Source: Herminiimonas sp.
Lineage (GTDB): Bacteria > Pseudomonadota > Gammaproteobacteria > Burkholderiales > Burkholderiaceae_D
Direction: 5' to 3'
DNA: 45,158 nucleotides
Assembly: GCA_014377845.1 (NCBI GenBank)
Contig: JACMOV010000059.1
Coordinates: 1-45,158 of the forward strand
The translations under genes and the position numbers were made by a program. How positions within the stretch are numbered: position 1 is the stretch's first letter; each line of letters starts with the position of its first letter. The notes beneath the pieces are model-generated. The model saw only the letters and a list, made by a program, of their open reading frames with translations, made no database searches and was not told the origin of the DNA. Shown piece by piece: positions 21,955 to 27,971 of the stretch.

Positions 21955-23382
21955 TCAAAAGTTAAGCGCCCGCTTCTCGACGGCGAGCGCCGCTTCCTTG
22001 GTCGCTTCCGACAGCGACGGATGCGCGTGGCAGATGCGCGCAATGTCTTCGGACGATGCGCGAAACTCCATCGCCACCACGGCTTCGGAAATCAGCTCGG
22101 ATGCCATCGGGCCGACAATATGGACGCCCAGGATTTCATCCGTTTTCGCATCGGCCAGAAACTTTACCATGCCCGCGGTATCGCCGAGTGCGCGCGCCCT
22201 GCCGTTGGCCATGAACGGGAACACGCCGGCCTTGTAGGCAACCCCATCGGCTTTCAACTGCTGTTCGTTCTTGCCGACCCAGGCGATTTCCGGCGCAGTG
22301 TAGATCACCCAGGGCACGGTATTGAAGTTGACATGGCCATGCTGGCCGGCGATGCGTTCGGCAACCGCCACGCCCTCCTCCTCGGCTTTGTGCGCCAGCA
22401 TCGGGCCGCGCACCACGTCGCCGACGGCCCACACGTTCGGCAGGTTGGTCTTGCAGTCGTCGTCGACGGCGATGAAGCCGCGGCCGTCCAGTTTCAGGCC
22501 CACGATGTCGCCGCCCAGGCCAATGGTGTTGGGTACCCGCCCGATCGAAATGATCAGCTTGTCGAACACGGCTTTCTGTTCGATGCCCTTGTCGTCGGTG
22601 TAGGCGACCGAAACGTCGTCGGCACCTTGCGTGATCGCACCGATCTTGACGCCGAGGTTGATCGCAAGGCCCTGCTTGACAAACAGCTTGTGGGCTTCCT
22701 TGGCAATCTGCTCGTCGACCGCGCCGAGGAAGGTCGGCAGCGCTTCGAGCACCGTGACCGCCGCACCGAGCCTGCGCCAGACGCTGCCCATTTCCAGGCC
22801 GATGACGCCGGCACCGATCACGCCCAGACGCTTCGGCACCGCTTCTATCGCCAGGGCGCCGGTGTTCGACAGGATCAGCCTTTCATCGAACGGCGCGCCC
22901 GGCAGTTCGCGCGCATTGGAACCGGTGGCGATGACCACATGCTTGGCCGTCACGGTTTCGGCGGCCGTGCCGGTGACGCTGATCGTGTAGACGCCCGCCT
23001 CGGCCTTGGCAAAGGCGCCACGACCATGGAAGAAGCTGACCTTGTTTTTCTTGAACAGGTACAGGATGCCGTCGTTGTTCTGCTTGACCACGGTCTCCTT
23101 GCGGCTCAGCATCTGCCGCAGATTCAGGCTCAGGCCGGCAATGTCGATGCCGTGCTCGGCGAATGCATGCCCCGCGTGCTCGAAATGCTCGGACGACTGC
23201 AGCAGCGCCTTCGACGGAATGCAGCCGACGTTGGTGCAGGTGCCGCCCGGGGCGGGGCCGCCTTTTTCGTTTTTCCATTCATCGATACAGGCAACCGAAA
23301 AACCCAGTTGCGCTGCGCGGATTGCGGCGATGTAGCCGCCAGGTCCGCCACCGATTACCACCACATCGAAATTTTTTGCCAT
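21955..23382 (-). CDS. lpdA: Dihydrolipoyl dehydrogenase, E3 of the 2-oxoglutarate dehydrogenase complex
   Basis: E3 reoxidises the dihydrolipoyl group of E2 with FAD and NAD+. The 475-residue product has the FAD motif GGGPGG (11-16), the redox pair Cys49 and Cys54 ([14 protein letters not shown]), an NAD-binding [18 protein letters not shown] and the C-terminal active-site HAHPSLSEA. The ATG at 23382 is chosen because the FAD fold begins within 10 residues; its Shine-Dalgarno sequence is weak. It is third in odhA-odhB-lpdA, with a 115-nt gap after odhB that contains a strong hairpin. The context marks it as the E3 of this complex, though E3 subunits can be shared. Confidence 0.96.
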
Positions 23383-23468
23383 GTCTTTACCAGGAATGAG
23401 AGAGGTCCAGCGGATCGGCACTACCGCAATGCAGGCTTCCATGCAGCGAATCGCACGCTATAAGGTCA

Positions 23469-23497: not shown

Positions 23498-24784
23498 TCA
23501 GAGGTCCAGCAGCAGGCGCGCCGGATCTTCGAGCGCCTCTTTCATCGCGACCAGGCCGAGTACTGCCTCGCGGCCATCGATGATGCGATGGTCGTATGAC
23601 ATTGCCAGGTAGTTCATCGGACGGATCACGATCTGGCCGTTTTCAACCACGGCGCGGTCCTTGGTCGCATGCACACCCAGGATCGCCGATTGCGGCGGGT
23701 TGATGATCGGCGTCGATAGCATCGAACCGAAGGTGCCGCCATTGGAGATCGAGAAGGTACCGCCGGTCAGGTCGTCGAGCGTCAGCTTGCCCTCCTGAGC
23801 CTTCTTGCCGAATTCACCGCTCTTCTTCTCGATGTCGGCAATCGACATCTGGTCGGCGTTGCGCAGGATCGGCACCACGAGGCCACGCGGCGAGCCGACA
23901 GCGATGCCGATGTCGAAGTAGCCGTGGTAGACGATGTCGTTTTCATCGACCGAGGCATTGATGATCGGGTATTTCTTCAGCGCGGCGACGGCGGCCTTGA
24001 CGAAGAACGACATGAAGCCGAGCTTGACGCCGTGTTCCTTCTCGAACTTGTCCTTGTACTTGTTGCGCAGGTCTATCACCGGCTGCATGTTGACTTCGTT
24101 GAACGTCGTCAGGATGGCATTGGTCGACTGCGATTGCACCAGGCGCTCTGCGATGCGGGCGCGCAGCCGGCTCATCGGCACGCGCTCTTCAGGACGATTG
24201 CCGAGGTTTGCTGCCACCGGTGGTGCGATCTGCTGCAATGCCGGCTTGGCCTGCGGTGCCGGGATCGGAGCACGCGGAGCGACCGGCACGGGTGCCGGTG
24301 CGACTGGGGCCTTGTTGTCGAGCGCATTGATCACGTCGCCCTTGGTGACGCGGCCATCCCGGCCGGAGCCGGCGACGTCGGTTGCAGACATGTTGTTCTC
24401 AGCCAGCATTTTTGCTGCGGCAGGCATTGCCACGCCGGCAGAGGCGCCCGCTACCTGGGCTGTCGGCGGCGAGTCTTCGGCTGCGGCGGCCAGTGCAGGC
24501 TGCGGCAAGGTCGTGACTTCCATCGGGCTGACCTTGACCGACGCATCGGTATCGATCAGGGCGATGACTTCACCGGCGACGACGGTGCTGCCGTCCGGCT
24601 TGACGATCTGGGTGATCACGCCGGCATCCGGCGCAGGCAATTCGAGGACCACCTTGTCGGTTTCGATATCGATCAGGTTTTCATCGCGGGCAACCGGCTC
24701 GCCAACCTTCTTATGCCACTGCAACAGGGTCGCTTCAGCGACCGATTCCGACAGTTGCGGTACCTTGACTTCTAGAATTGCCAT
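23498..24784 (-). CDS. odhB: Dihydrolipoyllysine succinyltransferase, E2 of 2-oxoglutarate dehydrogenase
   Basis: E2 carries the succinyl group on lipoyl-lysine to CoA. The 428-residue product has one N-terminal lipoyl domain with the lipoylated Lys44 ([12 protein letters not shown]), a peripheral-subunit-binding domain near 118-155 ([19 protein letters not shown]) and Ala/Pro-rich linkers. The catalytic domain ends in [12 protein letters not shown], with His399 and Asp403 as the acyltransferase residues. The ATG at 24784 has GGAG eight nt upstream (ACGGAGAGTTACATG). It is also called sucB. It follows odhA by 60 nt. Confidence 0.96.
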
Positions 24785-24844: not shown

Positions 24845-27700
24845 TCATTTCGTCAGTACAAAGCCCTTGAGCTTCGAAAATGCAGTCTCGATCAGCGCTT
24901 TCTGCTGGGCGTAGTGCTTGTCGTAATACCCCACCGCCGGCGATGCGCTTGCCGGACGGCCGGCGTAGGCCAGCTTCTGGCCATCGACCAGGTTCTCGAA
25001 GATGTTGTGCTGGATCTGGAACCATGGACCCTGGTTCTGCGGCTCGTCCTGGGCCCACACCAGCTCGGTGAAGTTCGGGAATTTCTTCAGTTCTGCCGTC
25101 AGTGCCTTGTGCGGGAACGGATACAGCTGCTCGAGGCGCACGATCGCGGTATCGGATTGGCCGCGCTCCTTGCGGGCGTTGACCAGATCGTAATAAACCT
25201 TGCCGGAACAGGCGACGACCCGCTTGATCTTCTTCGGATCGATCTTGTCATCCACCTCGCCGATCACGGTCTGGAACGACCCCTTCGACAGGTCCGACAG
25301 GGCTGATCCGGCATCCTTGTTACGCAGCAGCGACTTCGGCGTCAGGATCACAAGCGGCTTGCGGAACAGCCGGATCATCTGGCGGCGCAGCAGATGGAAA
25401 ATCTGCGCAGCCGTCGTGGGTTGCACGACCTGCATGTTGTTGTCCGCGCAAAGCTGCAGGAACCGTTCAGGCCGTGCCGAGGAATGCTCCGGCCCCTGCC
25501 CTTCGTACCCGTGCGGCAGCATCATCACCAGACCCGATGCCCGGCCCCATTTCACCTCGCCAGAGCTGATGAACTGGTCGATGACGACCTGCGCGCCGTT
25601 GGCGAAGTCGCCAAACTGCGCTTCCCAGATCGTCAGGGTATTCGGCTCGGCCGTCGAGAAGCCGTACTCGAATGCGAGCACCGCCTCTTCCGACAACACC
25701 GAGTCGATGATCGTGAATGGCGACTGTTGTTCCGAGACGTTTTGCAGCGGAATGTAGCTGCCGGCATCCCAGCGCTCGCGGTTCTGGTCGTGCAGCACGG
25801 CGTGACGGTGCACGAACGTGCCACGGCCTGCGTCCTGGCCGGTAATGCGGATCGCGTAACCCGATGCCAGCAGCGATGCGTACGCAAGGTGCTCGCCCAT
25901 GCCCCAGTCGAGGTTCATCTCGCCGCGACCCATCGTGGCGCGATCGCCCAGTACTTTTTCGACGAGTGCGTGGACCTTGAAATTCTCCGGTACCGTCGTG
26001 ATGCGCGTGGCCAGACGCTTGAGTTCAGCCATCGGCACGGCGGTATCGGCTGCATCGGTCCACTTTCGGTTCAGGAACGGCATCCAGTCGACTGCGTATT
26101 TGCTCTTGAAATTCGAGATCACCGGATCGACCGTAAGACGGCCGGCATCCATCGCATCCCGGAATTCCTTGACCATCGCATCACCGCCCTCGGCGCCGAT
26201 CGTGCCCTGTGCCGACAGCTTGTCCGCATACAACTTGCGGGTGCCGGGATGCTGGCCGATCTTCTTGTACATCAGCGGCTGGGTCAGCGCCGGTGTGTCC
26301 TGCTCGTTGTGGCCGAGTTTGCGATAGCAGATGATGTCGACGACGATATCTTTCTTGAACTCCATCCGGTAGTCCAAGGCAATCTGGGTGCACAGGACGA
26401 CCGCTTCCGGATCGTCGCCGTTGACGTGCAGCACCGGTGCTTCGATCATCTTCACAACGTCCGAGCAATACAGTGTCGAGCGCGAATCACGCGGATCCGA
26501 TGTGGTGAAGCCGATCTGGTTGTTGATCACGATATGGACGGTGCCGCCCGTGCCGTAGCCGCGGGTCTGAGCCAGGTTCAAGGTCTCCATGACCACGCCC
26601 TGGCCGGCGAATGCCGCATCGCCATGCACCAGGATCGGCAGCACCTGCGCGCCGTCCTTGTCGCCGCGCCGCTCCATGCGCGCCTTGACCGAGCCTTCGA
26701 CCACCGGGTTGACGATTTCCAGGTGCGACGGGTTGAACGCCAGCGACAGGTGGACCGGGCCGCCCGGCGTCGTGATGTCGGATGAAAAACCCTGGTGATA
26801 TTTGACGTCACCGGCCGGCAAATCATCGGCATGCTTGCCTTCGAATTCCGAAAACAGCTCCTGTGGCGTCTTGCCCAGGATGTTGACCAGAACATTCAGG
26901 CGACCGCGATGGGCCATGCCGATGACGATCTCCTGCACGCCACGTTCGCCGGCGCGCTGGATGGTTTCATCGAGGGAGGCGATGAAGCTCTCGCTGCCTT
27001 CGAGCGAAAAGCGCTTCTGACCGACGTACTTGGTGTGGAGATAGCGCTCCAGGCCTTCGGCAGCTGTCAGGCGCTCAAGGATGTGACGCTTCTTGTCCGA
27101 GGAAAAGTTCGGTGTGGAACGGATCGATTCCAGCTTTTCCTGCAGCCAGCGTTTTTGCGCGGGGTCGCTGATGTACATGAATTCAGCGCCGACCGACCGG
27201 CAATACGTATCACGCAGCGCATGCAACAGGTCGCGCAGCGTCGCGGTCTCGGTGCCGAAATAGGTGTTGCTGATGTTGAACACGATGTCCATGTCGGCAT
27301 CGGTGAAGCCGTAGGATGCCGGTTCGAGTTCGGGAATGCTCGGACGCTCCTGGCGCTGCAACGGATCGAGGTTGGCCCAGTTGTTGCCAAGGAAGCGGTA
27401 GGCAGCGATCAGCTGTGTGACGGCAACGCGCTTGCGCCCCATTTCAGCATCGACCGAGGCCACCACCGTACGGATCGGACCCTGCTTGGCACGTTCGGCG
27501 AAGGAAGCAATCACGGGTGCATGCGCCACGTCGGGCTTGTTGGAGCCATCGACCGCCGGCACATGTTGCATCGTGTCGAAATAGGCGCGCCAGTTATCCG
27601 GGACGGAACCGGGATTGTTCAGATAGGCTTCGTACAGTTCTTCAACGTACGGAGCATTGCCTCCGAACAGATAGGAGTTGGCTTGGTATTGCTGCATCAT
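24845..27700 (-). CDS. odhA: 2-oxoglutarate dehydrogenase E1 component
   Basis: This thiamine-diphosphate enzyme decarboxylates 2-oxoglutarate and succinylates the lipoyl group of E2. The 951-residue product (E. coli SucA 933) has the N-terminal E2-binding segment (SYLFGGNAPYVEELYEAYL), the ThDP region GDAAFAGQGVVMETLN with NNQIGFTTSDPRD, HNEQDTP, and the C-terminal transketolase-like part (MLPHGYEGQGPEHSSARPER). The ATG at 27700 is preceded by AAGAAAGG at suitable spacing. GTG at 27709 and ATG at 27697 are minor alternatives. It heads odhA-odhB-lpdA. The structured leader suggests post-transcriptional control. It is also called sucA. Confidence 0.97.
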   Translation of the reverse strand: MMQQYQANSYLFGGNAPYVEELYEAYLNNPGSVPDNWRAYFDTMQHVPAVDGSNKPDVAHAPVIASFAERAKQGPIRTVVASVDAEMGRKRVAVTQLIAAYRFLGNNWANLDPLQRQERPSIPELEPASYGFTDADMDIVFNISNTYFGTETATLRDLLHALRDTYCRSVGAEFMYISDPAQKRWLQEKLESIRSTPNFSSDKKRHILERLTAAEGLERYLHTKYVGQKRFSLEGSESFIASLDETIQRAGERGVQEIVIGMAHRGRLNVLVNILGKTPQELFSEFEGKHADDLPAGDVKYHQGFSSDITTPGGPVHLSLAFNPSHLEIVNPVVEGSVKARMERRGDKDGAQVLPILVHGDAAFAGQGVVMETLNLAQTRGYGTGGTVHIVINNQIGFTTSDPRDSRSTLYCSDVVKMIEAPVLHVNGDDPEAVVLCTQIALDYRMEFKKDIVVDIICYRKLGHNEQDTPALTQPLMYKKIGQHPGTRKLYADKLSAQGTIGAEGGDAMVKEFRDAMDAGRLTVDPVISNFKSKYAVDWMPFLNRKWTDAADTAVPMAELKRLATRITTVPENFKVHALVEKVLGDRATMGRGEMNLDWGMGEHLAYASLLASGYAIRITGQDAGRGTFVHRHAVLHDQNRERWDAGSYIPLQNVSEQQSPFTIIDSVLSEEAVLAFEYGFSTAEPNTLTIWEAQFGDFANGAQVVIDQFISSGEVKWGRASGLVMMLPHGYEGQGPEHSSARPERFLQLCADNNMQVVQPTTAAQIFHLLRRQMIRLFRKPLVILTPKSLLRNKDAGSALSDLSKGSFQTVIGEVDDKIDPKKIKRVVACSGKVYYDLVNARKERGQSDTAIVRLEQLYPFPHKALTAELKKFPNFTELVWAQDEPQNQGPWFQIQHNIFENLVDGQKLAYAGRPASASPAVGYYDKHYAQQKALIETAFSKLKGFVLTK

Positions 27701-27715
27701 ATTGCGCACCTTTCT

Positions 27716-27755
27716 TCGCGTTTCGCGAGATTAGCGGGTTAATCTAACCTTCCGC
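27716..27755 (-). promoter_or_regulatory. Structured 5' leader of odhA (sucA); candidate sucA RNA motif
   Basis: On the coding strand the 56 nt before the odhA ATG can form three helices. Hairpin A spans 27734-27755: GCGG with CCGC, enclosing GGTTA and TAACC. Hairpin B spans 27728-27745: AGATTA with TAATCT around a 6-nt loop. Hairpin C spans 27716-27728: TCGCG with CGCGA around AAA. A and B share bases and cannot coexist. C sits directly beside the Shine-Dalgarno region AAGAAAGG. A conserved 'sucA RNA' cis-regulatory element has been described upstream of sucA in Burkholderiales. Position and lineage fit, but I could not compare the consensus. Confidence 0.55.
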
Positions 27756-27971
27756 GACACGGCCTGACCGGTTAGCGGATTGCACATCAAGTTGTGGGGA
27801 AGGGCTTTTAGTCCGGGGTCGTTATGTGAAATGCTGCTGTTTTGCAAAGCTTGCAGAGGATAGCATGGCAATCCCCGCCCGCACCAATGGCGGACACGAT
27901 TGCCCGCCAGTGTTGAAAAGATTTGCGCGGATGCGACAGGCGCGCCGTCGCAGCCGTCTGCTCACCTTCGA

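Follow-up and report, generated by a model that had tools for sequence, protein, structure and literature searches.

Which RNA precedes odhA (sucA), the 2-oxoglutarate dehydrogenase gene of a Herminiimonas sp. genome, and which of its helices exclude one another? We addressed this question in a window of 45,158 nucleotides (GenBank assembly GCA_014377845.1, contig JACMOV010000059.1, positions 1 to 45,158), the whole stretch of DNA analysed here, in which odhA lies on the minus strand. The original prediction had proposed a candidate sucA RNA with two competing hairpins before the Shine-Dalgarno site and a third helix touching the ribosome-binding region.

The odhA leader is a full-length sucA RNA

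A cmscan search matched the leader to all 83 positions of the Rfam model for sucA RNA (RF01070) with 81.2 bits, against a gathering cut-off of 40, and the suspected family membership was thereby confirmed. The match ends 2 nt before the first ATG of odhA (27700), and it was the only RF01070 copy found in the source genome assembly (96% complete). In the Rfam fold, P1 closes the whole structure, P4 adjoins P5, and the ribosome site lies inside the RNA (Table 1). The element is a strong, ordinary member of a known orphan RNA family. A 91-nt leader taken from the window also folded better than its shuffled versions (z −2.0; 3 of 200 shuffles equally good). The leader heads odhA-odhB-lpdA within a cluster of TCA-cycle genes, as had been predicted: the genes for OdhA, SucB and lipoamide dehydrogenase follow it, and those for citrate synthase and three succinate dehydrogenase subunits precede it. 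Most likely, it controls translation of odhA and hence expression of odhAB-lpdA. Between 27690 and 27990, neither a consensus promoter nor an intrinsic terminator was found, and a CC3552 candidate at 27955-27888 was rejected because it reached only 18.8 bits against a cut-off of 50.

Table 1. Features of the odhA leader and the genes behind it, all on the minus strand
Feature	Coordinates	Strand	Basis or remark
CCUUCC, putative 5′ strand of competing helix P0, not covered by the Rfam model	27798..27803	-	exact inverted repeat with 27748-27753
sucA RNA RF01070, P1-P5, full length (model 1-83), Shine-Dalgarno site included	27703..27785	-	cmscan
UCCGC, P2 5′ strand	27775..27779	-	Rfam alignment
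Putative switch strand GCGGAAGGUU: P2 3′ strand (GCGGA), P3 5′ strand (GGUU) and proposed P0 partner GGAAGG (27753-27748)	27746..27755	-	
AACC (P3 3′ strand), then CGCU (P4 5′ strand, partner of the ribosome-binding site)	27733..27740	-	
P5 hairpin, the TCGCG-AAA-CGCGA helix of the original prediction	27714..27729	-	double-sided changes at 7/7 pairs
Shine-Dalgarno AAAGGUG; GGUG with CGCU forms P4 in the Rfam fold	27707..27713	-	
odhA/sucA, 2-oxoglutarate dehydrogenase E1, gene behind the leader	24845..27700	-	NF006914, 1382.8 bits
odhB/sucB, E2	23498..24784	-	NF004309, 598.8 bits
lpdA, dihydrolipoyl dehydrogenase	21955..23442	-	TIGR01350, 523.5 bits

Under strict filters, 50 of 399 genomes sampled across Burkholderiales carried RF01070. 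A sample of the class gave 3 positives among 274 genomes, each of them within Burkholderiales; none of 14 control genomes contained the RNA. When counted by family, the RNA occurred in 106 of 117 genomes of the window's own family (f1), 183 of 200 of f31, 170 of 180 of f49 and 161 of 180 of f4, with lower counts in f17 (4/26) and f3 (2/5). It was also present in 142 of 151 genomes of a Polynucleobacter-like genus. Judging from leader similarity, f31 probably corresponds to Burkholderia and f4 to Achromobacter/Advenella; we further infer that a Paucimonas MAG falls within f1, that Variovorax falls within f49 and that Polynucleobacter is the genus labelled g38. A profile built from 50 leaders detected the RNA at 30 of 80 named odhA loci, and at none of those that we take, by organism name, to be from Rhodocyclaceae, Neisseriaceae or gamma-proteobacteria. 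We kept 346 distinct leaders (256 + 26 + 64), all of which have an OdhA-like protein encoded within 400 nt downstream; 320 were found through the RNA model and 26 through OdhA itself, so that the odhA context is circular for those 26. Two matches each were seen in four fragmented genomes (G766, G786, G1005 and G1078), which may reflect duplication or an assembly artefact.

The Rfam fold is conserved, unlike the hairpins first proposed

Covariation was assessed on 31 diverse leaders, drawn from those whose core measured 78-86 nt and whose profile score exceeded 44; the Polynucleobacter set (f31p) was left out. For the Rfam fold, 88.8% of cells were paired compared with 77.8% after shuffling, and 87 cells carried double changes compared with 32; in neither measure did any of 500 shuffles score as high. 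The covariation score was 0.341 against 0.153 for shuffled leaders, and sliding the partner strand lowered pairing to 33-48%. Support differed among the helices. It was strongest for P5, where both sides vary at all seven pairs. P2 was paired in 100% of cells, with double-sided change at one of its five pairs, and P3 in 87.1%, with no such change. P4, which covers the ribosome site, was paired in 80.2% of cells and varied on one side only at all four pairs, and P1 reached 72.8%. The number of pairs with double-sided change over the whole fold (10) was not above that in shuffles (8.9), and the covariation came mostly from P5. These results support a conserved fold with covariation that is uneven and mainly in P5. 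The helix TCGCG-AAA-CGCGA of the original prediction (27728-27716, minus strand) is exact and corresponds to this P5.

The two competing hairpins fared differently. AGATTA (27745-27740) and TAATCT (27733-27728) form an exact inverted repeat on the minus strand of the window, but the repeat is not conserved in relatives: 35.7% of cells were paired across the 31 leaders compared with 32.7% after shuffling, and many close relatives have other sequence in place of the AGATTA loop. For the alternative helix GCGG-GGTTA/TAACC-CCGC, the inner GGTTA/TAACC is present, whereas the outer GCGG/CCGC is one C short (the sequence is TAACCCGC), so that outside the inner helix only GCG/CGC could stack, with a GAA bulge. 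This helix likewise showed no excess (73.5% of cells paired against 72.5% in shuffles), and the middle pair of its outer part fails in 17 of the 31 leaders. Compensatory changes in related leaders thus exist for the Rfam fold and not for either of these helices, and a switch between the two hairpins is very improbable despite the exact repeat in the window. The idea of mutually exclusive helices was right in spirit, although the conserved competitor proved to be another strand, CCUUCC, which lies outside the region in which the hairpins had been placed.

A conserved strand upstream of the Rfam core

CCUUCC (27803-27798) exactly complements GGAAGG (27753-27748) across 44 nt. GGAAGG runs from the last bases of the P2 strand GCGGA into the first of the P3 strand GGUU, and a helix between the two hexamers, here called P0, would therefore compete with both P2 and P3. 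CCTTCC occurred in 46 of 61 f1 leaders (shuffle mean 2.3), in 40 of 48 f31 leaders with Polynucleobacter left out (1.6) and in 71 of 73 f49 leaders (3.4). The f4 leaders instead carry CCTTCT (53/55), whose pairing can extend into the GC of GCGG; the low f4 count in the shuffle comparison (13/55) arose because the searched stretch ended 5 bases before the core. In an information profile built on leaders holding CCTTC[CT], where the site has 2 bits by construction and the flanks alone are informative, the 2-6 bases directly 5′ of the strand were partly conserved (up to 1.7 bits), as was the stretch 3′ of it in f1 and f31, with little conservation farther upstream.

The strand is also missing from part of the family. 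Among 78 Polynucleobacter leaders, 73 lack CCTTC[CT]; 65 of these have hexamers such as GGATGG or GAATGG in place of GGAAGG, and 8 have a compatible one. Several f1 MAGs and at least six Cupriavidus-like leaders (L006, L010, L237, L238, L243 and L290) also lack it, the latter while keeping GGAAGG. P0 is therefore common but dispensable.

Promoter-like sequences suggest that CCUUCC is transcribed. Simple patterns detected a −10-like box in 47 of 73 f49 leaders, ending 15-21 nt before CCTTC[CT] in 46 of them and 27 nt before it in one; the corresponding distances were 19-37 nt in f31 (29 leaders) and 29-47 nt in f4 (46 leaders). With this spacing, CCUUCC would lie in the mRNA near its 5′ end. 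Differential RNA-seq of B. cenocepacia lists a 118-nt sucA RNA in the part of the report available to us (PMC4603805). If that leader reaches the start codon, its 5′ end would fall 11 nt before CCTTCC, as measured from the odhA start of B. latens, used as a proxy for B. cenocepacia. A 94-nt sucA RNA predicted in H. seropedicae, with its match from nt 12 (PMC7011215, in excerpt), starts too late and would not reach CCUUCC. We infer a working leader of about 115-120 nt rather than 83, with CCUUCC at its 5′ end.

Possible pairing of the upstream strand with the core

Of the 234 leaders with CCTTC[CT] outside Polynucleobacter, 233 have a hexamer of their own that pairs with it at all six positions; this is GGAAGG in 222 cases, GGGAGG in 7 and GGAGGG in 4. 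A compatible hexamer (GG, two purines, GG) was present in 238 of 239 leaders with the site and in 30 of 107 without it, or in 233 of 234 and 22 of 34 when Polynucleobacter was set aside, both comparisons being uncorrected for kinship. In 178 representatives, the upstream site was chosen by its resemblance to CCTTCC, irrespective of pairing. Full P0 was formed in 106 of them, compared with a mean of 85.3 when partners were dealt out at random, and none of 2000 such randomizations reached this count. Double-sided cells numbered 10 against a shuffled mean of 3.8, a number attained in 7 of 2000. In both tests, related leaders counted as independent. Of 37 variant leaders, 25 remained once near-duplicates were dropped, and a cruder swap test on these gave p = 0.056. 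When each leader was shuffled on its own, the upstream complement reached p <= 0.05 in 104 of 282, 48 of them from f4, and p = 0.089 in the window itself. The case for P0 is moderately supported and rests on recurrence and coupling across leaders, not on single leaders.

Individual leaders inspected by eye also show matched changes on the two strands. L175 has CCUUUCC with GGAAGGG, one extra base per strand; L049 has CCCUCC with GGGGGG, L214 has CCUCC with GGAGG, and L309 has UUUCUG with CAGAAG. In L205, CCTTCC is kept and the hexamer, GAAAGG, no longer pairs fully.

These observations bear on two other readings of the upstream strand. The 83-nt fold may regulate odhA alone, with CCUUCC kept for start-site context, as a protein site or for stability of the 5′ end. 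The fold has independent support, its core persists without CCUUCC in most Polynucleobacter, and the Cupriavidus-like leaders named above retain GGAAGG without the strand; the close coupling of site and hexamer and the matched changes in L175, L049, L214 and L309 would nevertheless be unexpected, and we consider this reading unlikely, while keeping it ahead of the other alternatives. In the second reading, CCUUCC would be a direct anti-Shine-Dalgarno strand with AAGG/GGAGG of the ribosome site as its target, and GGAAGG would act as a decoy by capturing CCUUCC. An unconstrained fold of the window leader does pair CCCUU with the ribosome site, and runs of 4-5 such pairs can be drawn for 226 of 234 leaders. 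However, six pairs with the Shine-Dalgarno region can be formed in only 4 of 234 leaders outside Polynucleobacter, against 233 of 234 with the hexamer, and in L049, L214 and L309 the upstream strand tracks, by eye, the hexamer and not the Shine-Dalgarno sequence. This makes a direct anti-Shine-Dalgarno role doubtful.

Proposed competition between P0 and the sucA fold

We lean modestly towards a switch at the level of translation, within a leader of about 115-120 nt: P0 would form in competition with the sucA fold, in which the ribosome site is covered. The lack of double-sided change in P4 weighs against this model. CCUUCC at the 5′ end of the leader would pair with the conserved GGAAGG to form P0, and since P0 would be incompatible with P2 and P3 as drawn, the leader would adopt two states. 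In state A, P2, P3 and P4 would be formed and the ribosome site covered, whereas in state B, P0 would be formed and the sucA core opened. One of the two would be favoured by a signal, for which a metabolite near the 2-oxoglutarate node is the most likely candidate. As to direction, we incline slightly to state A as the repressed, signal-bound form.

ViennaRNA calculations on the window gave −34.7 kcal/mol for the free ensemble, −34.6 for the P2 state and −32.6 for the P0 state, so that P0 costs about 2 kcal/mol relative to P2. The predicted accessibility of the Shine-Dalgarno site was 0.04 with P2 and 0.27 with P0. Both values were obtained for 14 of the 22 leaders tried. With P0, accessibility rose in 8 of these (by no more than 0.02 in some), stayed the same in 1 and fell in 5; folding energies therefore do not decide the direction of the switch.

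Relation to known RNAs and possible signals

The window element resembles RF01070 in its full 83/83 match, in the gene it precedes and in its position over the Shine-Dalgarno site. The difference is that the model match starts at 27785 and leaves the conserved CCUUCC outside. The motifs sucA-II (RF01758) and sucC (RF01759) are likewise named for suc genes but belong to other taxa, being listed for Pseudomonadales and gamma-proteobacteria in the available part of PMC2864571; neither matched at the gathering threshold in the window. Our reading of the upstream strand as a competitor follows a familiar design. Translational riboswitches with a competing strand have one strand common to two exclusive helices and hold the ribosome site within the fold. 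The sucA leader would share both the common strand and the enclosed ribosome site; its extra strand lies 5′ of the core.

In the portions of the literature covered by our search, sucA appears as predicted, with unknown ligand (PMC3766115), and as probably a riboswitch (PMC4603805), and a 2020 paper still calls the ligand unknown (PMC7011215). A predicted 3D model exists under RF01070, where the RNA is called sul1 RNA (PMC10636060). There is no mention of sucA in the excerpts of PMC10043782 and PMC7266159, and PMC4448311, as excerpted, refers to sucA of B. subtilis and E. coli. These partial sources gave no ligand or mechanism for sucA RNA, and the search retrieved no paper on a named 2-oxoglutarate, succinyl-CoA or sucA riboswitch. 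The upstream CCUUCC is likewise unmentioned in the excerpts searched, a set that did not include the original motif paper. The sucA RNA of H. seropedicae is reported to be highly expressed with nitrate (PMC7011215, in excerpt), which is compatible with control at 2-oxoglutarate and is not evidence of binding.

CsrA-type proteins bind GGA motifs. A leader read by a protein, for example one of this type, rather than by a metabolite would fit the conserved GGA motifs of the sucA RNA and the lack of a ligand in the literature searched, although the complex conserved junction suggests an aptamer, and we regard protein reading as improbable.

What was known is sucA RNA as an orphan family; what the present analysis adds is a moderately supported, testable upstream extension of it. 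We hold it to be about an even call whether the fuller statement is true, namely that sucA RNA extends about 30 nt beyond the public model, that CCUUCC is the competing strand of a two-state riboswitch of the 2-oxoglutarate node in Burkholderiales, and that 83-nt constructs would lack the switching strand. If the upstream strand belongs to the RNA, ligand screens should use the leader of about 115-120 nt. A 2022 review names too-short constructs as one cause of failed validations (PMC10043782, in excerpt). The two-state model also yields point mutants with clear predictions for how flux is set at 2-oxoglutarate, the meeting point of carbon and nitrogen metabolism.

Variant leaders

Several groups of leaders depart from the common arrangement. 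A MAFFT alignment of 208 whole leaders was gappy upstream of the core, and pair counts were not taken from it. An alternative that counts against P0 exists in f4 and in one Polynucleobacter subgroup, where AAGG or GGAA immediately upstream offers a local partner for CCUU or UUCC. A Polynucleobacter subgroup (L174, L364, L365, L369-L372 and L374) has a local hairpin immediately upstream of the core, for example GCGGAA..UUCCGC in L364; its 5′ arm copies the GCGGAA strand of the core, and the arms seem to co-vary (L370, L371). Five other Polynucleobacter leaders (L032, L034, L036, L189 and L295) showed an 8-pair match at −43, which was set aside as it lies, by eye, upstream of the likely −10 box and is probably untranscribed.

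Among the f1 MAGs, L206-L211 and L215 have, by eye, a P3 region that is longer or rebuilt relative to other f1 leaders, and they lack CCUUCC. In f49, L119, L123, L124, L129 and similar leaders carry a local hairpin, CCCGTCCCCTT ... AAGGCGGG, between CCUUCC and the core, and keep CCUUCC although it starts 37-55 nt upstream of the core. In short f49 leaders such as L117 and L130, CCUUCC often sits in a small hairpin loop closed by GGC...GCC (AGGCCCUUCCCCAGCC), as though exposed for pairing between loop and strand. In L199, L200 and L305 (a Thiomonas MAG), CCUUCU is retained upstream and the profile match ends just past GGAAGG; the sequence that follows (ATGTTTTCCCACTGAGCGCC) is unlike P3-P5, possibly representing a variant with a different platform. 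Finally, four f49 leaders (L253, L254, L255 and L256) contain a near-repeat of the strand AACCAGCT in the P3/P4 region (such as AACCAGCTTTAACCAGCT in L254), which could provide two competing partners for GGUU or for the ribosome site.
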